DNA from: Rheinheimera sp.
GTDB lineage: Bacteria; Pseudomonadota; Gammaproteobacteria; Enterobacterales; Alteromonadaceae
NCBI RefSeq assembly: GCF_020217005.1
Contig: NZ_JAIWOI010000211.1
Coordinates: 1-10,000, forward strand
Reading direction: 5' to 3'
Length of the DNA stretch: 10,000 bases
Positions 23-9,978 of the stretch are shown here, piece after piece. How positions within the stretch are numbered: the stretch's first letter is position 1; each line of letters starts with the position of its first letter. The notes under the pieces are model-generated. The model saw only the letters and a list, made by a program, of their open reading frames with translations. It was not told the origin of the DNA and did no database searches. Both the position numbers and the translations under genes were made by a program.

Positions 23-445
23 TTAAATCAGCCTGATAGTGACTGCGATATTGCCGCGCGTGGCTTTAGAGTATGGGCAGATTTGATGTGCCTTGTCAGT
101 CAGCTGTTGTGCATGCTCTGGCTCCAGACCCGGCAAACTGACATTTAGTCGCGCTTGTAAAAAGTAGGCGTTGTCGGTCAGGCCTAAATCAATTTCAGCA
201 TCTACAGCTGTCTCTTTAGGCAGCGTCAGATTGAGTTCGGCTGCAGCTTTCCCCATGGCACCAATAAAACAGGCGGACCAGCCAGCGGCCAGTAATTGCT
301 CTGGATTCGTGCCAGGCCCTGCAGAACCTGGTACCGACAATTTAATATCTAACCGACCATCAGAGCTTTGGGATTCACCAGTGCGACCACCAGTGGTGTG
401 GGTTTTACCTGTGTAAACAACTTTTTCAATGCTAGCGATCATCAT
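23..445 (-). CDS. ohr: Organic hydroperoxide reductase Ohr (OsmC/Ohr family)
   Basis: This 140-residue protein reduces organic and lipid hydroperoxides to alcohols with a thiol pair re-reduced by lipoylated proteins; it acts in the cytoplasm. The family cysteines are both present: Cys59 in SACF (peroxidatic) and Cys123 in CPYSKATRGN (resolving). Arg21 and the Glu of NPEQL (Glu49), which shape the active site in Ohr, are also present. Length is normal for Ohr rather than OsmC. There are two adjacent ATGs (445 and 442); AAAGG at 451-455 serves either, with spacing of 5 or 8 bases. No ohrR gene is visible in the window. It is divergent from hvfA across a 301-bp gap, so the link to the metallophore cluster may be only positional. 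Confidence 0.95.
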   Translation of the reverse strand: MMIASIEKVVYTGKTHTTGGRTGESQSSDGRLDIKLSVPGSAGPGTNPEQLLAAGWSACFIGAMGKAAAELNLTLPKETAVDAEIDLGLTDNAYFLQARLNVSLPGLEPEHAQQLTDKAHQICPYSKATRGNIAVTIRLI

Positions 446-591: not shown

Positions 592-640
592 GATACAGAG
601 TGATACAAATCCAGTGGTTCTCCGATACGTTGAGGATACA
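592..640 (+). promoter_or_regulatory. GATACA direct repeats upstream of hvfA
   Basis: GATACA occurs at 592-597, 602-607 and 635-640, with a one-mismatch copy GATACG at 624-629. The first two are exactly 10 bp apart; the others fall about 32 and 43 bp from the first, close to whole helical turns. A very similar arrangement in the same orientation to transcription precedes the reductase-like gene (4125-4172). Tandem half-sites spaced by one turn are typical of OmpR-family response regulators. The function is inferred from shared architecture only. Confidence 0.45.
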
Positions 641-746: not shown

Positions 747-1208
747 ATGTCTCGTAATCAATCGTTAAAAACAACAGGCTTAGGATTTATGACCGTAGCG
801 TTAGTCGGTGGTTTAAACCTGAGCTCAGCGGCCTTTGCTATGGACTCTTTACCTCAAGGTTACCAACTGACGACTTTGGTAAAAGTAGGTGAAGGTAAAT
901 GTGGTGAAGGTAAATGCGGTGCAGCAGAAAGCAGCACCAAAGTAGCAGCGACTGAAGGCAAGTGTGGCGAAGGTAAATGTGGTGATGCCTCTTTTGCCAC
1001 TACGGATACAGACGATGACAATTTGGTTTCGCGCAAAGAGTTTCTGGCTGTGGCGCCAACCCGTGCTGAAGTCTTTAACGAAATTGATACAAACCGCGAT
1101 GGTTTTTTGTCTGAAGCAGAGACCTATCAATACATGAAAAGTGTTTATGAATCCAATGGCAAAGACTTACCACAAGAGCTGTTTACCCGCCTGAGTCAGG
1201 CGAAGTAA
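747..1208 (+). CDS. hvfA: HvfA/bufferin-type RiPP metallophore precursor with C-terminal EF-hands
   Basis: This is a secreted precursor of a ribosomally made, post-translationally modified copper-binding peptide, 153 residues from the ATG at 747, which has GGAGA at 736-740. Residues 1-31 form a Sec signal peptide: a short basic start, a hydrophobic stretch, and an AFA motif with likely cleavage before Met32. Four EGKCG motifs follow in two tandem pairs (residues 49-58 and 70-79; Cys52, 57, 73, 78). In HvfA and bufferins such cysteines are converted by the MNIO enzyme into oxazolone/thioamide or thiooxazole groups that bind copper. Two EF-hand loops follow: residues 87-98 (Asp87, Asp89, Asp91, Glu98; Asn in place of the usual Gly) and 114-125 (Asp114, Asn116, Asp118, Gly119, Glu125). 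The modification is inferred from family and from the adjacent hvfB and hvfC. The EF-hands could bind calcium or have another role. Confidence 0.9.
   Translation: MSRNQSLKTTGLGFMTVALVGGLNLSSAAFAMDSLPQGYQLTTLVKVGEGKCGEGKCGAAESSTKVAATEGKCGEGKCGDASFATTDTDDDNLVSRKEFLAVAPTRAEVFNEIDTNRDGFLSEAETYQYMKSVYESNGKDLPQELFTRLSQAK
891..983 (+). repeat. Duplicated EGKCGEGKCG-coding blocks
   Basis: Two 30-bp blocks, 891-920 and 954-983, encode the same ten residues. They differ at four positions, all third codon positions and all silent. They are separated by 33 bp encoding a linker of small and charged residues (59-69). Each block is itself a tandem duplication of the five-residue EGKCG unit. Confidence 0.9.
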
Positions 1209-1232: not shown

Positions 1233-1267
1233 CCCCCGCCATGCTTTTTGCTGGCGGGGGCTTTTTT
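1233..1267 (+). terminator. Intrinsic terminator between hvfA and hvfB
   Basis: A perfect nine-base-pair GC-rich stem, CCCCCGCCA (1233-1241) with TGGCGGGGG (1252-1260), closes a ten-base loop and is followed by C and six Ts (1262-1267). It lies 25 bases after the hvfA stop and directly before the hvfB ribosome binding site at 1271. I see no promoter between it and hvfB, so it most likely acts as a partial terminator that lowers maturase expression relative to precursor. Confidence 0.9.
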
Positions 1268-1284: not shown

Positions 1285-2118
1285 ATGATCACACAGACTA
1301 CTTTACAAGGTGCTGGCCTGGGTTTACGCCGTGCTTTATTGCCTGAATTACTGAGCATGGATAGCCATGTAGTTGATTTTCTTGAATGTGCACCTGAGAA
1401 CTGGATAGATGTGGGCGGTGCTTATGGTCAGCAACTGATGAGTCTGGCGGAGCGTTTTCCACTGAGCTGTCATGGCTTGTCTTTGTCGTTAGGAGGCCCT
1501 GCGCCACTGGATATGCAGTTACTACAGCGCAGCCGTGCTTTTCTGGATCGCTTTCAGGTGCCTCTGTTCAGTGAGCACCTGAGCTATTGCTCTGATGAAG
1601 GCCACTTATACGATTTATTGCCTCTGCCCTTTACGGACGAAGCTGTGTTGCATCTGGCTGCACGTATCCGTCAGGTGCAGGATGTGCTTGGGCGACGTAT
1701 TGCGGTGGAGAATATCTCCTATTACGCCGCGCCTTTTCAGGCCTTGGCTGAAATTGAGTTTTTAAAAGCGGTGATCAGTGAAGCCGATTGTGATTTGCTG
1801 CTTGATATCAATAATTTATATGTGAACTCCATCAACCATAATTATGACGCTAAGGCCTATCTGGCGGCTATTCCGGCTGAGCGGGTGGTCTGTATGCATG
1901 TGGCCGGTCACTATGACGAAGCTGTGGATTTGAAAATAGACACTCATGGCGCGCCGGTAAAAGCCGACGTCTGGAGTTTATTGCGTCTGGCTTATCAGCG
2001 TTTTGGCGCTGTACCCACCTTATTGGAGCGGGATTTTAACTTTCCGCCTTTGTCGGACTTAGTGATGGAAGTATCACAGATACGTCAGTTGCAACAGCAG
2101 GGAGTCCGCCATGGATAG
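1285..2118 (+). CDS. hvfB: HvfB family MNIO (DUF692) RiPP maturase
   Basis: This 277-residue multinuclear non-haem iron oxidative enzyme modifies the EGKCG cysteines of HvfA in the cytoplasm before export. It has the TIM-barrel DUF692 signatures in order: GLGLR (11-15), LECAPENW (33-40), HGLSLSLGG (63-71), SEHLSY (96-101), VENISYY (141-147), DINNLYVNS (174-182), HVAGH (205-209), DTHG (219-222) and LLERD (246-250). Candidate iron ligands are His63, His98, Glu142, Asp174, His205, His209, Asp219, His221 and Glu248, by analogy with MbnB and TglH. No ligand appears to be missing. GGAGGAG at 1271-1277 gives a strong start at 1285. The gene overlaps hvfC by eight bases, consistent with translational coupling. 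Members of this family need the DUF2063-type partner for activity, and it is encoded next. Confidence 0.95.
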
Positions 2119-2848
2119 GACCTTAGAGCAGCAATTACTTAGTCTGGCACATTATGTGCGCAACCCTGCAGGTTGTGCACCTCCACCAGGGATCGAAGCC
2201 CGGCGTCTGGCGATTTACCGTCGTTTGTTTTATGGCAATATCGAAGCCATGTTGGCTTCAGGCTTTCCGGTACTTTCTGCCAGCCTTGGTTCTGCCGACT
2301 GGCATAGGCTGGTGCAGGATTTTTATGCCAGTTACCGCTGTCAGACGCCCTTATTCACCGAACTTGCCTCTGAGTTTGCGTTTTATCTGCAGCAAGGCGT
2401 GGCAGAATCTTTGAAACTACCGCTGTGGCTGGCAGAGCTTGCGCATTATGAGCAGGTTGAGACTGTGTTGTTGCTTAGTCATGCACAACCGCCTGTCGTT
2501 CCTGCAGTGACTGAGCTGCTGGATACTGTGCTTGTGCTCTCTGAATTGGCTTGGCCTTTAGCCTACCAATGGCCCGTCTGTGATATAGGACCTGCTCATC
2601 TGCCAAAGCAGCCCTTGTCAGAGCCAACCTTATTACTGGCGCAGCGCAAAGCCGACCATCAAGTGCACTTCTCCCGCCTGGCTCCTCTGGCTTATGCTTT
2701 GCTGGTCTCAGTGCAACAACAGCAGTGGACAGGGCGGCAGCATCTGACCGCATTGGCTGATAGCATGGAGGTGACGTTGGACGCTGTTTTACCTGCAGGC
2801 AAAGCGCTGCTGGAACAGCTACATCTGCAGGCAGTTATTTCGGGCTAG
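2111..2848 (+). CDS. hvfC: HvfC/BufC family RiPP maturation partner (DUF2063)
   Basis: This 245-residue partner of the MNIO enzyme is thought to recognise or position the precursor; it has no known catalytic residues. The N-terminal half carries the DUF2063 signature: [18 protein letters not shown] (31-48), then GFPVL (51-55), DFYASY (70-75), and [11 protein letters not shown] (107-117). The C-terminal half is more divergent: a YQWPV segment at 152-156 and a helical end. The start at 2111 has GGAG at 2101-2104 and overlaps the 3' end of hvfB, so the two are almost certainly co-translated. The following gene is on the other strand, so the plus-strand operon ends here. The N-terminal part is often labelled DNA-binding in databases, but the context points to maturation rather than transcription. 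Confidence 0.92.
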
Positions 2849-2921: not shown

Positions 2922-3419
2922 TCAGCTGCGTTTACGCAGCAAAGCATCCAGGCTCAACTGGCCTGCGCCTTTAAGCAGCAGCAAAAATAACCCCAGCATA
3001 TAAATCAAAGGTAACTTGTAATTGCCATAACCTTTATCACTGATGGAATAGCCCATAGCCAACTCTGATAAAGTGGACCATTCTGCGGGCCAGTGCACCG
3101 CAGCGGTCGCCACTAAGGTCAGTAGCATAAGCACGAGGCTGGCCAGACGGGTACCCAGACCCAGCAGTAGCAAAACCGGGGCTATTAACTCCACCCACAT
3201 CGACAGCTGCCAGTTCAGGTTGACCGGTAACAGATTAAAGGGCAGCGGAAAATTCGACTGGATTTGCCCAAACCAGTTCTCTCCGTGCCATTTCTTCAGA
3301 CCTGCTTCAAAAAACTCCCAGGCCAGAAACAAGCGCAGTGGGACATCAGCCAGCCAAAGACCGGCCGTATTCAAAGATGCAGATAAGGTTTTTGTCAGGG
3401 ACTTCACAGAATCATTCAT
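2922..3419 (-). CDS. hvfX: DoxX-family membrane protein, HvfX-like
   Basis: This 165-residue inner-membrane protein has four predicted membrane segments (about 20-38, 73-90, 92-110 and 136-152). The DoxX-type pattern includes [16 protein letters not shown] (29-44), the NFPLPF loop (56-61) and [15 protein letters not shown] (77-91). DoxX proteins are regular companions of HvfABC and bufferin clusters (HvfX, BufD), but their exact role is not known; participation in maturation, export or redox supply has been suggested. Here it is not in the plus-strand operon. It lies convergent to hvfC, 73 bp away, and starts inside the stop codon of the reductase-like gene (ATGA, 3416-3419), so the two are translationally coupled. 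A generic DoxX quinone-linked protein is the alternative reading. Confidence 0.85.
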
Positions 3420-4051
3420 CGCACGGCCCCACTCTTTACCGATTTGCGGCTATGCACTGCTACTTTTGCTGTGAGCTTTAACACAATGGCCGACACCATG
3501 ATGCTAAAACCAATCAGATACCAGGGGTGCATCGGAATACGTTTGTAAAAGGACAGGCAGAAAATAGCGGCTATCACCCAGGTACCGGCTGAGTGCAACA
3601 GTTTCCAGATGTTGAAACCCAGCAGACGAACCATCACAGGAAAGGAGGTGATCGTCAGCAACAAAATAAACAGATAACCCACAGAACCGGGGATATTGGC
3701 GGTTGCGGTGCGGCCATTCCAGAAGGTTTCAGGAAACATAGTGGCGTAAATCATGATCAGAATACCGTGCACCAGATGCGAAAACGCAAAGGACAAGCCG
3801 AGAAAGCGCCTTTCCCTAAGTAGCGCTTTGGTGCCCTGGTTTGGCAACAGAATCACCAGCGAAGAGGCTAAAAAGGTCAGCAGGAATAATGTAAAGGAGG
3901 TGCGGGCTGTGACACGAATAGCGCTGCGTAAGGCATCCACTAATTCGGTATGCCACAGCATGGTACTGGTCGCGAACAGCAACACAGCTAACGACAGCAG
4001 CGCAAATAAAGTCCAGCCACGCAGGCCGGACCCGGAGTTGGTATAAGTCAT
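3416..4051 (-). CDS. Ferric-reductase-like transmembrane protein, putative haem b protein
   Basis: This 211-residue membrane protein has about six hydrophobic segments (roughly 14-33, 51-69, 84-104, 124-143, 154-170, 177-194). It resembles the ferric reductase/MsrQ transmembrane domain: the [15 protein letters not shown] segment (81-95) and the [10 protein letters not shown] segment (149-158) place His92 or His95 and His153 where this fold coordinates haem b. It has no flavin or NAD(P)H-binding domain, so electrons would come from a partner or the quinone pool. It is coupled to hvfX by a four-base overlap, which suggests it supplies or removes electrons during metallophore maturation or copper handling; that is inference. 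The start at 4051 has AAGGA at 4060-4064 with an eight-base spacer. Its upstream region shares GATACA repeats with hvfA. Confidence 0.75.
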
Positions 4052-4124: not shown

Positions 4125-4172
4125 TGTATCCCCAATATGTCGGCGATCAGGCCTTTTGTATCTCTATGTATC
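4125..4172 (-). promoter_or_regulatory. GATACA direct repeats upstream of the reductase-like gene
   Basis: Reading the minus strand, GATACA occurs at 4172-4167, 4162-4157 and 4130-4125. The first two are exactly 10 bp apart and the third lies 42 bp from the first, matching the 10 and 43 bp offsets upstream of hvfA. The second copy is followed by AA in both places. The repeats lie in the 134-bp gap after the kinase stop codon, so the reductase-hvfX pair probably has its own promoter. Confidence 0.45.
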
Positions 4173-4185
4173 CGGTATTGTTACA

Positions 4186-5484
4186 TCAGCGGGGCAATTC
4201 GACAGTAACACATAAGCCGCCTTCAACACGGTTTTGTAGCCTCAGGTGGCCGCCTAGCGCATGGCTGAGTTGTTGTGCTATAGCCAGCCCTAAACCTGTG
4301 CCCCCAGTCTCCCGATTGCGTGAGCTTTCGACCCGATAAAAAGGCTGCAGCACTTGCTCCAGTTCTGCTTCTGGTATACCAGGCCCCTGATCCAGTACCT
4401 GCAGTTGGATGCCAGATCCCATGTTTTGTACGGTTAATTCGGCACTGCCACCAAATTTCAGCGCATTATCTGTCAGGTTGGTCAGGATACGGCGCAGCGC
4501 ATGAGGTCTGGTATTGATCACCGCGGCCGCACTGCCTGTGAGACTGACGGCCTGGCCGCTGTCCTGGTAATCACAAACTAAACTATCGAGAAAGGCATCC
4601 AGGTCGATACGACATTCTGGCTCTGCGGCACTGTCCATGCTGCGGGCGTAAGCCACGCCTTCTCTGACCAAATGCTGCATTTCGCTTAAATCACTCCACA
4701 ACTTGTCTTTTTCCAACGAGCCATCCATTTGCTCCACCCGCAGTTTCATTCGGGTGATAGGGGTTTGCAAATCATGTGAAATAGCGGCCAGTAGTTGCAT
4801 CCGCTCTTTCAGAAAAGCGGCAATACGGCTTTGCAGCGTATTAAAAGCACGGGCGGCGTACACCACCTCGCTGGGGCCTTGTTCATCCAGCTCCGGGCTG
4901 GGCGCATCCGGGTCCAGTTGATCCACAGCCTGTGCCAAGCGGGTTAAAGGCCGAATGGCCATATGCACCGCCAGCCAGGTACAGCCCAATAAAACCAGCA
5001 GTTGCAGAATAAGTACTATAGGTAACCACTGAGCTATAGGTATAGCGCCTGGTGTAACATCCAGTGTCAGTCGCTTGCCGTCGCTTAAAGTCATATGCAC
5101 CTGAAAATGAGGTCGTGATCCGGGCATAGTCTGAAACACGGGTTCGAATCGTTTGGCGACTGACTGCGCAATAGTCAGAGCGGCCGCATGGGGCTGCTTC
5201 ATATCCATCGGCTCGCCAAGGATGGGCTGGTCCAGCAGATACCTATAGTTGCGTCGTTCCACTAAAGACAACCAGCCCGCTCTTTCTTCAGCTGGTAACC
5301 TGTCCAGTAAGGCCACTGCTGTACTGACATCTGTGGATAAATTATTCAGCATCACGTTGCGGCCTGTCTGGTAGCGCTCATAAAACTGCGAGCTGAAGGA
5401 CAAACCATAAGCCAATATCAGGCCTACTAATAAAATAAAGGCCAGGCGGGCGGCCAGACTTTGAGGCAAACGCAGCGGCTTCAT
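4186..5484 (-). CDS. Two-component sensor histidine kinase
   Basis: This 432-residue inner-membrane kinase phosphorylates the response regulator encoded just upstream. Membrane segment 1 spans about 13-30, a periplasmic sensor domain about 31-152, membrane segment 2 about 153-175, and a HAMP linker 176-228. The dimerisation domain has the H-box AAISHDLQTPITRMK with His237. The ATPase domain has the N-box LTNLTDNALKFG (335-345), the G1 box DQGPGIPE (365-372), the F box PFYRVESSRN (381-390) and the G2 box GGTGLGLAIA (394-403). All catalytic motifs are intact. The periplasmic domain carries Met and His residues (Met93, Met95, His99, Met120, His126, His130, Met131) that might bind a metal, but no known sensor family is recognisable. 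It starts two bases after the regulator stop, so the two are co-translated. The signal is unknown. Confidence 0.95.
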   Translation of the reverse strand: MKPLRLPQSLAARLAFILLVGLILAYGLSFSSQFYERYQTGRNVMLNNLSTDVSTAVALLDRLPAEERAGWLSLVERRNYRYLLDQPILGEPMDMKQPHAAALTIAQSVAKRFEPVFQTMPGSRPHFQVHMTLSDGKRLTLDVTPGAIPIAQWLPIVLILQLLVLLGCTWLAVHMAIRPLTRLAQAVDQLDPDAPSPELDEQGPSEVVYAARAFNTLQSRIAAFLKERMQLLAAISHDLQTPITRMKLRVEQMDGSLEKDKLWSDLSEMQHLVREGVAYARSMDSAAEPECRIDLDAFLDSLVCDYQDSGQAVSLTGSAAAVINTRPHALRRILTNLTDNALKFGGSAELTVQNMGSGIQLQVLDQGPGIPEAELEQVLQPFYRVESSRNRETGGTGLGLAIAQQLSHALGGHLRLQNRVEGGLCVTVELPR

Positions 5485-5486
5485 GC

Positions 5487-6227
5487 TCAGGTGTCCGGTT
5501 CAAGCAGTTGCAGTGGTAAGGTAAAGACATAACCTTCGTTGCGCACTGTTTTGATGCAGGCCGCTTCGCGGGCATCATCACGCAGGCGCTGGCGTAAACG
5601 ACTCACCAGCAAATCGATGGAGCGGTCAAAAATATCGGCTTCACGGCCTTGAGTCAGATTGAGTAATTGCTCACGGCTCAACACTCGTTGCGGATGATCC
5701 AGAAAGACCCGAAGCAATCTGTATTCGGCGCCACTTAAAGACACCACTGTGCCTGTATTATCCAGCAAATGCCGGGCACTGGTGTCGAGCCGCCAGTCGC
5801 CAAAGCCTATTAAACGGCTGCTTTCAGTGATCTGCAGGTTAGGTGGCAACATTCTGGTGCGTCGCAGTACTGCATTGATCCGTGCCAGTAACTCTCGGGC
5901 AGAAAAAGGTTTAGTCAGGTAATCGTCAGCGCCCATTTCCAACCCTACTATACGGTCGGTTTCGTCGCTGCGGGCCGTCAATAACACAACAGGAATGGCT
6001 TTATGTTTGCTGACGCGCAGTTCACGGCATAAGCGCAGGCCATCATCTCCCGGCATCATAATATCCAGTACAATTAAATCGACCGTATTGGCTTCGAGGA
6101 AAGAACGCATTTGCCGGCCATCAGCAGCCAGACTGACCCTCATGCCATTTTTAGTCAGGTAGTTGCCTACCAGTTCACGGATTTCTCTGTCGTCGTCGAC
6201 AACCAGAATATGTTCACCCTGTTCCAT
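5487..6227 (-). CDS. OmpR-family response regulator
   Basis: This 246-residue transcription factor is controlled by phosphorylation. The receiver domain (about 5-122) has the acidic triplet at 11-13, phospho-acceptor Asp55 in VLDIMMPG, Thr84 and Lys106 in LTKPF. The C-terminal winged-helix domain (about 138-237) has the usual LSGAEYRLLRVFLDHPQRVLS segment followed by the recognition-helix region DRSIDLLVSRLRQRLRD and the GYVF wing end. It starts at 6227 with AAGGG about five bases upstream. It is the first gene of a regulator-kinase pair on the same strand as the reductase-hvfX operon. OmpR-type regulators bind tandem direct repeats about one helical turn apart, which is the pattern of the GATACA repeats before hvfA and the reductase-like gene; a regulatory link is plausible but unproven. 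Confidence 0.95.
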   Translation of the reverse strand: MEQGEHILVVDDDREIRELVGNYLTKNGMRVSLAADGRQMRSFLEANTVDLIVLDIMMPGDDGLRLCRELRVSKHKAIPVVLLTARSDETDRIVGLEMGADDYLTKPFSARELLARINAVLRRTRMLPPNLQITESSRLIGFGDWRLDTSARHLLDNTGTVVSLSGAEYRLLRVFLDHPQRVLSREQLLNLTQGREADIFDRSIDLLVSRLRQRLRDDAREAACIKTVRNEGYVFTLPLQLLEPDT

Positions 6228-6474: not shown

Positions 6475-7782
6475 ATGCTAAACGCCGTTGCTAAACCCCT
6501 GGTGAAACTGGTCGAGCGTTACCTGCCTGACCCTTATATTTTTGTGTTGTTATTGAGCTTGTTGGTGTTTGTTGCTGCCATCCTGTTTGAACAACAAAGT
6601 CCTTTGGCTGTGGCGCAGCAATGGGGCGATGGATTTTGGGGCTTGCTGAGTTTTTCGATGCAAATGCTGTTGGTGCTGGTAACAGGTTTTATGCTGGCAA
6701 GCACTCCTTTCGTCAGCTCTTTGCTGGACAGGCTGGCGCTGCTGGCCAAAACTGCGGGTCAGGCCATAGTGCTGGTGACGCTGGTGTCTTTAGCCGCCAG
6801 CTGGCTGAACTGGGGTTTTGGTTTAGTCGTTGGGGCTTTGTTTGCTAAAGCTTTAGCGCGGCGGATCCAGGTCGATTACCCCTTACTAATCGCCAGTGCT
6901 TATTCAGGTTTTGTTATCTGGCATGGAGGCTTGTCGGGTTCAGTGCCTTTAACTATTGCCACGTCCGGCCATTTTTCCGAAGCTCAGATAGGCATTATTC
7001 CAACATCCGACACTATTTTTTCCTCGTTTAATCTGCTGCTGGTGGTGGCTTTATGTCTTGTGGTGCCGCTGTTGAATTACCTGATGCGACCTAAAACTGA
7101 AGATGCGGTTTATATAGACCCGGCTAAGTTAACCCCTGAAACTCTGCCCGATTTAACCACAGCACGACCTGCCGATAAGCTGGAAAACAGTTTTGTGATC
7201 ACAGCTTTAATCGTCGTGGCCGCAGCGGCTTATTTGCTGCAGTATTTTGCTAAAGCCGGTGGGCTGAATCTGAATATAGTGAACTTTCTGTTTTTGTTTC
7301 TGGCGATTTTACTGCATGGTACACCAAGGCGTTTATTGCATAGCCTGCAGCAGGCCATTCAGGGCGGGGCTGGCATTATTATTCAGTTTCCGTTTTATGC
7401 CGGCATTATGGCGGTGATGATGCAGTCGGGTTTAGCTCAGTCTTTATCGCAGTGGTTTGTCAGCTTTGCTACGGCCGACAGTCTGGCGTTCTGGACTTTT
7501 ATCAGCGCTGGTCTGGTGAATATTTTTATCCCTTCCGGCGGTGGTCAATGGGCGGTGCAGGCTCCAGTGATGATACCCGCAGCTTTGGAATTAGGGGCTG
7601 AAGTCAATCGTATTGCCATGGCTGTGGCCTGGGGCGACGCCTGGACTAACTTAATCCAGCCGTTTTGGGCTTTACCTGTGTTGGCAATAGCAGGCCTTAA
7701 AGCCAAAGATATTATGGGCTATTGCCTGCTGCAATTGCTGGTGACAGGGGGGATCATCAGTCTGGTGCTGAGTTTTGTCTGA
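6475..7782 (+). CDS. atoE: Short-chain fatty acid transporter, AtoE family (TIGR00366-like)
   Basis: This 435-residue inner-membrane permease belongs to the family that imports short-chain fatty acids such as acetoacetate or butyrate. The sequence is hydrophobic throughout, with roughly ten or more membrane segments and a polar loop at about 205-238. Family signatures seen are NWGFGL (112-117), WHGGLSGSVPL (149-159), IPSGGGQWAVQAPV (352-365) and GDAWTNLIQPFWALP (387-401). Length is normal. The ribosome site is weak: GGA at 6465-6467, seven bases from the ATG; earlier ATGs are out of frame. No fatty acid activation or CoA-transferase gene is adjacent, so the substrate is uncertain. It ends one base before the stop codon of the convergent DUF6445 gene. 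Confidence 0.88.
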   Translation: MLNAVAKPLVKLVERYLPDPYIFVLLLSLLVFVAAILFEQQSPLAVAQQWGDGFWGLLSFSMQMLLVLVTGFMLASTPFVSSLLDRLALLAKTAGQAIVLVTLVSLAASWLNWGFGLVVGALFAKALARRIQVDYPLLIASAYSGFVIWHGGLSGSVPLTIATSGHFSEAQIGIIPTSDTIFSSFNLLLVVALCLVVPLLNYLMRPKTEDAVYIDPAKLTPETLPDLTTARPADKLENSFVITALIVVAAAAYLLQYFAKAGGLNLNIVNFLFLFLAILLHGTPRRLLHSLQQAIQGGAGIIIQFPFYAGIMAVMMQSGLAQSLSQWFVSFATADSLAFWTFISAGLVNIFIPSGGGQWAVQAPVMIPAALELGAEVNRIAMAVAWGDAWTNLIQPFWALPVLAIAGLKAKDIMGYCLLQLLVTGGIISLVLSFV

Positions 7783-7783
7783 T

Positions 7784-8470
7784 TCAGCCTGAAGTGGCAG
7801 ACAAAAAAGACGCTATGGTGAATCGTCCTGACAGGGGATTCAGGTCGTATTGGTAGTCAGGCCCTATATCGCCTGAGTGTAACGAAGAACAGCGGTACAA
7901 CACCAGTCGGTTAAAACGGGCAGGCACAGTGGCTATCACTTCAAACAGGGGGGTGTCGCCGCAAATATAACCGCTGGGCTGCCCATGCTTTTGAACATCG
8001 GCCTGCAGTGCGTGCTGGTAATGGTTTTGGCGCTCTGGAGTAATGGCTTCATAACCTGTACTGCGGTGACGGTAAAAACTGGTGCCGCCATGCTGTTCAC
8101 CACATAAATAATAAATGGCTGCCAGTTGGTCCGGGCAGGGCCGGTCAAAATGCGGAATAGATTGCAACAGCGACAATTCGGCTGCCGGGGTACAAACCAG
8201 AGAAAAGTAGCTCTGAACCTGCTGGAGCTGATCTGGTGTCAGGCCAAAACAGTCCCGAATGGGCTGGGCTAACTGTTGCAGCAGAAACGCAGAAAAAGCC
8301 GCTGGCGCCGCAGAACGCAAGCCCGGATAAAGGCCAGCAGCCTGCCGCACGTCCCCTTGTTGTAAGGCGTAGCGGATCAGTCGCTCGGGCTGAGGAATAA
8401 AATCATCCACCACCAGCAGCGGCTGTTGCTGCTGGCCTATCCGGCTAAATTGCATCACAGCTGGTTTCAT
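7784..8470 (-). CDS. DUF6445 family protein, 2OG-Fe(II) dioxygenase-like
   Basis: This 228-residue protein of unproven function shows a 2-oxoglutarate/iron dioxygenase-like pattern: IPHFD (His107, Asp109), a following YYLCGEQHGGTSFYRHR segment typical of the double-stranded beta-helix core, the distal SLHSGD (His198), and GRFTIASFL with Arg216 where 2-oxoglutarate would be held. The start at 8470 is chosen because its ATG overlaps the halogenase stop by one base (TGATG); an in-frame TTG at 8494 is possible but less likely. Proteins of this family occur beside tryptophan-halogenase-like genes, often near TonB-dependent receptors, as here for the halogenase. A joint role in modifying an amino acid or natural product is inferred; neither substrate nor reaction is known. 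Confidence 0.8.
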   Translation of the reverse strand: MKPAVMQFSRIGQQQQPLLVVDDFIPQPERLIRYALQQGDVRQAAGLYPGLRSAAPAAFSAFLLQQLAQPIRDCFGLTPDQLQQVQSYFSLVCTPAAELSLLQSIPHFDRPCPDQLAAIYYLCGEQHGGTSFYRHRSTGYEAITPERQNHYQHALQADVQKHGQPSGYICGDTPLFEVIATVPARFNRLVLYRCSSLHSGDIGPDYQYDLNPLSGRFTIASFLSATSG

Positions 8471-9978
8471 CAGTAGATTTTTCCGGCTTTGCAATGCTGG
8501 TCGATAAAGCTTTGGTGCGATGGCATATAGTCGACAGATTTGCGGATCACGCTGCGAATACCTTCCAGTCGTTTTTCCAGTTCAGCTTCAGGAAACAGGT
8601 CCACCATAGGGTGGTAGGCTTTGGGTGTGATGCCCTGACCCAACATAACTTCAAACCAGCTCAGATCGCTGAACATTTCATTGTTAAAGCGGAAGATACG
8701 GCCACTGGCCTTAAATTGTTGGATTTTCTGGTTTAGCTCTTCCGGCACTGACATAGTGCGGCAATAGTTCCAGAACTCCGAATCATTCCGCTCTGTGGCA
8801 TGGTAATGCAGGATCAGAAAATCCCGGATCTTGTCATAGTCAAAATGCATCTGGCGGTTGAATTCGTCTATGTCACTTTGGGCAAAGTTGCGATCAGGGA
8901 AAAAACTAAACAGCTTGGAAATAGTGGCTTGTACCAGATGCAAACTGGTGGACTCCAGCGGTTCCATAAAACCACCCGCCAGCCCGACAGCCAGACAGTT
9001 TTTATTCCAGAATTTTTTGCGTTTACCTGTGACAAAGCGGATAGGTCTGGGTTCGGCCAAAGCTTCCCCATCCAGATTTTTCAGCAAAATAGCGGTTGCT
9101 TCGTCTTCCGACATAAAACGGCTGCAAAAGACATGGCCATTGCCGACTCTGTGTTGCAACGGAATGCGCCATTGCCAGCCAGCAGGCTGGGCTGTGGCTC
9201 TGGTAAAAGGCCAGGGTTCAGACGTGCTGGCACTGGGCACAGCTATGGCTCTGTCGCAGGGCAGCCAGTGACTCCAGTCTTCGTAGCCGGTTTTTAAGGT
9301 TTGCTCAATCAGCAGGCCACGAAAACCTGAGCAGTCGATAAAAAAGTCCGCTTCATGTTCAGTGCCATCGGCCAGGCGCAAAGAGTGGATAAACCCATTG
9401 TCCAGTTGTTTGACCTCAACCACTTCACCTTCAGTGCGTTGCACGCCCCATTGTTCGGCTAACTCCCGTAAATACCTGGCAAAAAGCCCGGCGTCAAAAT
9501 GAAAGGCATAAGCGATATTCGACAGCGGCGAGTTACCTGCATCCATGGACCGCATAAAACGTTGTTCAAGGCAGGCCAGCGAACTAAGGGTGTATTCATC
9601 CAGCGGCGCCGCTTTACCCAAGGAGCGCATTTTTAACCAGTAGTGATAAAACTGCAGTCCTTCCATATTTTTGCCGACTTCACCAAAAGCATGGAAATAA
9701 CTGCTGCCTGGTTTTTGCCAATCCACAAACTGAATACCCAGTTTAAAGGTGGCCTGAGTACGGCGCATAAAGTCATTTTCGTCCAGGCCAATCAAATCGT
9801 TATACAACATGATTTGCGGAATAGTAGCTTCGCCTACACCTACAGTGCCTATCTGTTCGGATTCTATGACCTGAATTTGGCAGTACTGATTTTTTAATAC
9901 TTTCCCTAAAGCCGCAGCTGTCATCCAGCCGGCAGAGCCTCCACCTAATACGATGATTTTTCTTATTTTTTCTATCAT
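8470..9978 (-). CDS. Flavin-dependent tryptophan halogenase family protein
   Basis: This 502-residue member of the FADH2-dependent halogenase family uses reduced flavin, oxygen and halide to make hypohalous acid, which a lysine directs to the substrate. The N-terminal FAD-binding motif is IIVLGGGSAGWMTAAAL (8-24). Lys79 in TFKLGI is at the same number as the catalytic lysine of PrnA. The WxWxIP motif is present as WQWRIP (268-273), and the conserved glutamate region is GFMEPLESTSL (336-346). All diagnostic residues are thus kept, and the length is in the family range. GAGG lies five bases before the ATG at 9978. No flavin reductase gene is visible. Many relatives from marine and freshwater proteobacteria sit near TonB-dependent receptor genes and their substrate is unknown, so tryptophan itself should not be assumed. 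Confidence 0.93.
   Translation of the reverse strand: MIEKIRKIIVLGGGSAGWMTAAALGKVLKNQYCQIQVIESEQIGTVGVGEATIPQIMLYNDLIGLDENDFMRRTQATFKLGIQFVDWQKPGSSYFHAFGEVGKNMEGLQFYHYWLKMRSLGKAAPLDEYTLSSLACLEQRFMRSMDAGNSPLSNIAYAFHFDAGLFARYLRELAEQWGVQRTEGEVVEVKQLDNGFIHSLRLADGTEHEADFFIDCSGFRGLLIEQTLKTGYEDWSHWLPCDRAIAVPSASTSEPWPFTRATAQPAGWQWRIPLQHRVGNGHVFCSRFMSEDEATAILLKNLDGEALAEPRPIRFVTGKRKKFWNKNCLAVGLAGGFMEPLESTSLHLVQATISKLFSFFPDRNFAQSDIDEFNRQMHFDYDKIRDFLILHYHATERNDSEFWNYCRTMSVPEELNQKIQQFKASGRIFRFNNEMFSDLSWFEVMLGQGITPKAYHPMVDLFPEAELEKRLEGIRSVIRKSVDYMPSHQSFIDQHCKAGKIY

Follow-up and report, generated by a model that had tools for sequence, protein, structure and literature searches.

The window analyzed in this study, a stretch of 10,000 nucleotides of Rheinheimera DNA, encodes a protein that we judge, with slightly better than even confidence, to be equivalent to EfhP of Pseudomonas: an exported precursor of a copper RiPP, of the oxazolin/captophorin EGKCG type and with a C-terminal EF-hand pair, which would be controlled by a BfmRS-like switch, fold after export and respond to a stress signal. 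The architecture of the precursor, its gene neighbours, the conserved boxes and loops, and the position of its HvfB among Pseudomonas enzymes were observed directly. Fusions of this type have been described before. Since a class of EGKCG/EF-hand chimaeras is in print in the accessible part of PMC12452194, the novelty implied by the earlier note on this DNA does not stand. The window probably represents a further, acquired case whose conserved regulatory frame makes the function testable, and it joins three things that have been studied separately, namely the calcium protein EfhP, copper RiPPs made by MNIO enzymes, and BfmRS.

The precursor combines four EGKCG motifs with an EF-hand pair

The precursor gene (747-1208, forward strand) is of the hvfA/efhP type and is referred to below as hvfA. 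It encodes 153 residues, of which residues 1-31 (747-839, forward strand), ending in AFA, were read from the sequence as a predicted Sec signal peptide. An A-x-A motif lies within residues 20-42 in 42 of the 47 relatives that share the architecture of the precursor, compared to 28.5 expected from shuffling, which is a weak test for a signal peptide. Four EGKCG motifs follow on the forward strand, the first two (Cys52 and Cys57) at 891-920 and the third and fourth (Cys73 and Cys78) at 954-983. Both pairs are matched by NF050137, the NCBIfam model of the paired EGKCG motif (residues 49-80; 38.1 bits, cut-off 19.5). The HvfA equivalog model NF050188 was not reached (33.3 bits, cut-off 95), and the precursor is therefore a member of the EGKCG family and not HvfA proper.

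The two EF-hand loops comprise residues 87-98 (1005-1040) and 114-125 (1086-1121), both on the forward strand, and each was recognized by Pfam, by alignment and by the loop pattern in relatives. The Pfam cut-offs were passed by single EF-hand models (EF-hand_5 with 29.7 bits at a cut-off of 25.9, plus two stretches of EF-hand_6), and two models of EF-hand pairs remained narrowly below theirs. AlphaFold2 modelled the EF pair with confidence and the rest of the precursor with low confidence; the EGKCG part, which lies in the low-confidence region, was predicted to be disordered and not packed against the EF pair. When the predicted structure was compared with known structures, EF-hand proteins were listed with modest scores, and no match at E 0.01 was obtained for the precursor among the sequences of solved structures. 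Pfam, the alignment, AlphaFold2 and the structure comparison all place canonical 12-residue loops and the helix-loop-helix fold of the EF-hand superfamily in this protein. The earlier note had read the gene as an EGKCG precursor fused to a pair of well-formed EF-hands, and this description was borne out by the four EGKCG motifs, the two canonical loops, the confidently modelled EF pair and the adjoining hvfB and hvfC genes. Because the loops are canonical in 46 of the 47 relatives of the same architecture and the relative EfhP binds Ca2+, the calcium site is likely to be real. By analogy with related EGKCG peptides, the peptide probably traps copper. It should be mentioned that the codons of both EF loops (starting at 1005 and 1086) begin with GATACA, the letters of the regulatory half-site described below, which is probably a coincidence of Asp-Thr codons.

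Genes and elements around the precursor

The precursor gene is adjoined by hvfB (1285-2118, forward strand), which encodes an MNIO maturase (NF003818, 422.7 bits, cut-off 360; PF05114), and by hvfC (2111-2848, forward strand), which encodes the DUF2063 partner protein (NF050145, 255.5 bits, cut-off 142), an arrangement by which EGKCG RiPP precursors are recognized. Between hvfA and hvfB a GC-rich hairpin is followed by a T-run (1233-1267, forward strand; fold of 1206-1284, z −3.53), and this element is possibly an attenuator that would favor the precursor over the enzyme. The hairpin was also detected in L037 (R. faecalis) but in none of the tested Pseudomonas loci; among the tested loci with the architecture of the window, it is confined to the window and L037. 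Hairpins in L093 and L116 are unrelated to it.

The next genes are located on the reverse strand and encode a membrane protein of the DoxX/HvfX family (2922-3419; NF050144, 138.7 bits, cut-off 80; PF07681), a ferric reductase-like membrane protein (3416-4051; PF01794, 40.1 bits, cut-off 28), a BfmS-like sensor histidine kinase (4186-5484; PF02518) and a BfmR-like response regulator of the OmpR type (5487-6227; PF00072 and PF00486), the latter being 77-98% identical in the kinase loci. An identity of the reductase-like protein as MsrQ was rejected (19.6 bits, cut-off 130). On the other side of hvfA, an ohr-type peroxidase gene (23-445, reverse strand; TIGR03561 Ohr family, 156.3 bits, cut-off 88.85) diverges from hvfA across the promoter box. 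The window further contains genes for a short-chain fatty acid transporter (6475-7782, PF02667) and a tryptophan halogenase-like protein (7784-9978, PF04820), the latter overlapping a DUF6445 gene (PF20043).

Relatives and architectures

The earlier note had proposed to search EGKCG precursors for EF-hand domains. In a scan of genome contigs, of which the best 80 of 300 relatives were kept, architectures were assigned by pattern: in architecture A the EF part comes after all cysteine motifs, and in architecture B cysteine motifs are also found after the EF part. This yielded 47 proteins of architecture A, 22 of architecture B (L084-L099, L103, L106, L108-L110 and L115) and 11 without the EF pattern, one of which (L101, 3345-3797, Pseudomonas sp. 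TH43) resembles an A copy with a frameshift in the EF part. Two canonical loops are present in all A proteins except L060; since the pattern fixed loop positions 1, 3, 8 and 12, the constancy there is partly by construction, positions 5, 6 and 9 being free. The number of EGKCG-like motifs per A protein ranges from 2 to 7, and in 21 of the 22 B relatives the EF pair is situated between cysteine motifs.

Architecture A was found in Pseudomonas, Rheinheimera, Steroidobacter, Stenotrophomonas and Lysobacter, and in two records labelled Pantoea and Paucimonas. Architecture B occurs mostly in relatives of Lysobacter, with four cases in Pseudomonas. The precursor from the window is 44-63% identical to many Pseudomonas proteins from strains other than PAO1. 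Within the genus of the window, 5 of 22 genomes contain it, that of the window among them. An EGKCG match was obtained in 110 of 147 genomes of the family, and the EF pattern is absent from the 30 family loci with the highest EGKCG scores, a sample biased toward long repeats. Among 72,556 plasmid records, no match to the precursor was found. In one Rheinheimera genome (G210, L181-L182), a further relative of the EF precursor, with 57% identity, lies about 5.8 kb from the first one.

A conserved BfmR-type box and a BfmRS-like two-component system

According to the accessible parts of two studies on P. aeruginosa BfmR, its footprints share GATACAnnGC (PMC4148453) and the motif derived from ChIP-seq is TACAA-N3-GATACA (PMC8025907). 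The latter study reports bfmRS, PA4103 and PA4107 as the three strongest ChIP-seq peaks and efhP as the most activated gene. We searched for the published half-site in the arrangement GATACA-N4-GATACA, and this box occurs without mismatch at two positions in the window, before hvfA (592-607, forward strand) and before the operon for the reductase-like and DoxX proteins (4157-4172, reverse strand). The same boxes are present in relatives, the second one at the same place. An additional GATACA half-site is located at 635, near the first box. When the window was shuffled, two or more matches with up to two mismatches arose in 18 of 200 shuffles, and the boxes in the window alone are therefore not decisive. 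A chance occurrence was rejected on the basis of conservation among relatives.

Counting boxes with one mismatch or none, 39 of the 47 A precursors have one in the 400 nt before the gene, copies without a nearby hvfB included, and 20 of these boxes are exact. In the A loci the background amounts to 7 such sites in 309,969 other bases, and those in L037 and L061 are the site of the reductase operon. The exact box precedes each of the four A precursors that were fetched from the genus of the window. The eight precursors without a near-perfect box have two (L060, L081), three (L062), four (L073) or five mismatches (L064, L066, L067, L068); such a box is missing in Steroidobacter and in all four A loci of Lysobacter and Stenotrophomonas. 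No B locus has a box at one mismatch, the four Pseudomonas B loci having two mismatches. At this threshold, a box was found in only one of the 11 loci without EF pattern (L101), and in none of the 30 family loci (91,089 bases). Before the reductase-like gene, 13 of 15 distinct loci tested have a box with at most two mismatches and six with at most one. Both the precursor and the reductase operons are thus preceded by the box, as in a BfmRS regulon. Of 30 kinase loci, all but those of R. faecalis, Tahibacter and the Paucimonas record (27 loci) also have a box with at most one mismatch before the regulator gene. A search for the box and its half-site gave none upstream of the regulator gene in the window.

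A search of 35 of 36 genomes for the kinase gave a BfmS-like protein (at least 50% identity over nearly the full length) in all 29 genomes with architecture A and in 3 of 6 with architecture B. Such a kinase is also found on 147 plasmid records (below 60% identity, E 1e-80 or better), and it is therefore not specific to the precursor.

The hvfB locus was probably acquired, and precursors also occur apart from hvfB

The genome of the window contains a second MNIO locus, on contig C81 (L006, 2117-4224), with HvfB-like and HvfC-like genes and a classical EGKCG precursor without EF pattern. In a quick tree of 79 HvfB sequences chosen from 102 distinct ones, the window HvfB falls within a set of 13 A rows (SH-aLRT 96), seven from Pseudomonas, one from the record labelled Paucimonas and five from the genus of the window. 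The C81 enzyme groups with the enzymes of its own family that serve precursors without EF-hands; in this tree the C81 row is a long one, and 25 of the 76 inner branches have weak support. The position of the window HvfB among Pseudomonas enzymes, together with the patchy presence of the precursor in the genus, suggests that the window locus was acquired laterally. HvfB enzymes encoded next to EF precursors for the most part group together, and their clade also contains enzymes from two Arenimonas loci in which the precursor has no EF-hands.

For 28 of the 47 A copies, hvfB is missing from the fetched stretch, several of these contigs (L047, L069, L072, L078) ending shortly after the precursor. 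Twenty-five of these copies and L101 belong to 25 genomes, all of which gave an MNIO match (a fragment in G163). Twelve such genomes were searched for the MNIO and the BfmS-like kinase alike, and 7 of them have an MNIO gene within 4 kb of the kinase. The presence of an MNIO in all 25 genomes is weak evidence by itself, since MNIO genes are common in the genus. Of 30 MNIO loci fetched, 20 are HvfB-like (at least 65% identity to the window HvfB). Upstream of these, the box was found with at most one mismatch at 6 loci, at most two at 9 and at most three at 16, matches at three mismatches counting little because 10-17% of shuffles reach it. When all short open reading frames up to 900 nt upstream were considered, no EGKCG gene was detected at 18 of the 20 HvfB-like loci; EGKCG genes near an MNIO in genomes with distant precursors numbered two (L138, L140). 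The economical reading would be a single regulator under which the distant precursors are modified in trans. At L120-L139 and L145, which are hvfB-like genes of Pseudomonas genomes with the EF precursor elsewhere, several of the upstream genes, judged by eye from their sequence, look like formamidase or acetamidase genes instead of a precursor.

Comparison with EfhP and other known systems

By its published description, EfhP (PA4107) of P. aeruginosa shares with the window protein an EF-hand pair, four EGKCG repeats (PMC11559002, where control by BfmRS is also cited), DUF692 and DUF2063 genes in the same operon (PMC4053335) and control by BfmR. An EF-hand gene with DUF692 and DUF2063 genes is likewise what the gene order of the window presents, and this order, with its BfmRS-like system, resembles the described PA4101-PA4107 region. 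The GATACA half-sites and the set of neighbouring operons agree with those of BfmRS. Set against the descriptions, the Rheinheimera locus differs in the ohr gene diverging across the box, in the hairpin between hvfA and hvfB, and in a regulator gene without a box, whereas Pseudomonas has a box at this gene. The accessible text of PMC9132961 gives EfhP a predicted signal peptide and a Kd for Ca2+ of 13.7 µM. For that measurement EfhP had been produced in E. coli in a form lacking the signal peptide; it was therefore probably unmodified, and the published binding may need repeating on the modified form. As stated in PMC11559002, efhP is also controlled by Ca2+, Fe and growth phase.

The chimaeras of PMC12452194 likewise consist of a short EGKCG domain followed by two EF-hands and do not differ in kind; no mention of EF pairs between cysteine motifs, of BfmRS or of Ohr was found in the accessible part of that paper. 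Oxazolin/HvfA and fontiphorin, the captophorins of PMC13097082, are described with a signal peptide, EGKCG motifs, an MNIO with DUF2063 partner and DoxX, but they have more repeats than the window precursor and no EF-hands. In the literature searched, no paper joining BfmR with DUF692 was found, nor was BfmR beside DUF692, MNIO or DUF2063 among the matches listed.

Proposed function and alternative explanations

For EGKCG repeats, 5-thiooxazole formation and copper binding have been reported (PMC13097082, accessible part). By analogy, HvfBC would convert the EGKCG cysteines to copper-binding 5-thiooxazoles, the EF pair would bind Ca2+ and BfmR would activate the operon. We infer that modification would precede export, in the cytoplasm, where the EF-hands would carry no Ca2+ and the chain would still be Sec-competent. 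After export, the much higher Ca2+ concentration would fold the EF pair, which would then keep the flexible, copper-binding tail in place in the periplasm. Induction would come from an oxidant- or copper-related envelope stress common to Ohr and the reductase-like protein. A role of the EF pair in folding is the reading that we prefer.

The main rival, which we consider rather unlikely, is a calcium-gated metallophore or sensor, in which Ca2+ would change the copper affinity of the modified tail or expose a partner surface, integrating two metal signals as has been proposed for EfhP in calcium signalling. This would fit the published reports that the surface hydrophobicity of EfhP increases with Ca2+ and that its loss alters Ca2+ responses (PMC9132961, PMC11559002, as far as accessible), and also the greater constancy of the EF loops compared to the number of EGKCG-like motifs; however, no partner is known, and in the structure model, with its low confidence in this region, the EGKCG part is not packed on the EF pair. 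The chances are poorer still that the cysteines are unmodified and bind metal as plain thiols, the EF-hand protein having left the RiPP pathway. Fe sensing by the EGKCG cysteines was suggested in 2024 (PMC11559002, accessible part), and the many A copies without hvfB in the fetched stretch point in the same direction, but several of these lie near a contig end, and the MNIO genes in all 25 genomes, in part close to the kinase gene, argue against it, if weakly when taken by themselves. The earlier note had also raised the idea of a leader-like recognition element placed after the core, and the clustering of the HvfB enzymes found beside EF precursors would agree with an EF domain that guides HvfBC. 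This idea became less likely with the position of the EF pair between cysteine motifs in nearly all B relatives and with the Arenimonas enzymes of the same clade that serve precursors without EF-hands; moreover, published EGKCG precursors are processed without EF-hands (PMC13097082, accessible part). Accordingly, we regard it as the least probable of these explanations, and as a very improbable one.

A wider form of the preferred folding scheme can be proposed only tentatively. EfhP-type proteins might be the chief output of an envelope oxidant response controlled by BfmRS, in the form of a thiooxazole copper trap that stays unfolded for modification and Sec export and is locked in the periplasm by Ca2+-driven EF folding. 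The reductase-like protein and DoxX would be produced along with it, as would Ohr in some bacteria. Damage by oxidants or copper would be what BfmS senses, and where efhP is distant, the hvfBC genes next to bfmRS would provide for its modification in trans.

Neighbouring ohr genes and a possible link to oxidant stress

The conserved switch and the genes around it suggest a role in oxidant stress. Ohr is encoded near only a minority of the A precursors (7 of 47 loci), and near none of the 22 B precursors, the 11 precursors without EF-hands or the 30 shorter family loci. Within the genus, ohr is present in loci L178-L181, with a partial match in L179. The direction indicated by this neighbourhood agrees with links of such EGKCG/MNIO clusters to oxidative stress in the literature (PMC13097082, accessible part). 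A link between BfmR and Ohr may already have been published. No stated signal for BfmRS was found in the accessible literature, and nothing apparently related, as judged by title, on BfmS and hypochlorous acid. Six of the ten listed kinase matches on plasmids, few and chosen by rank, were examined for their surroundings. In four of these six regions (two from Phyllobacterium, one each from Microvirga and Rhizobium), the BfmRS homolog has an ohr gene no more than 4 kb away. Two regions carry an MsrA annotation and two a DipZ annotation, and in five of the six the regulator gene is preceded by a box with zero to two mismatches. On the plasmids represented by L183, L184, L187 and L188, the BfmRS homologs are found near ohr and some of them near msrA or dipZ, the box with zero to two mismatches preceding the regulator in three of these four.
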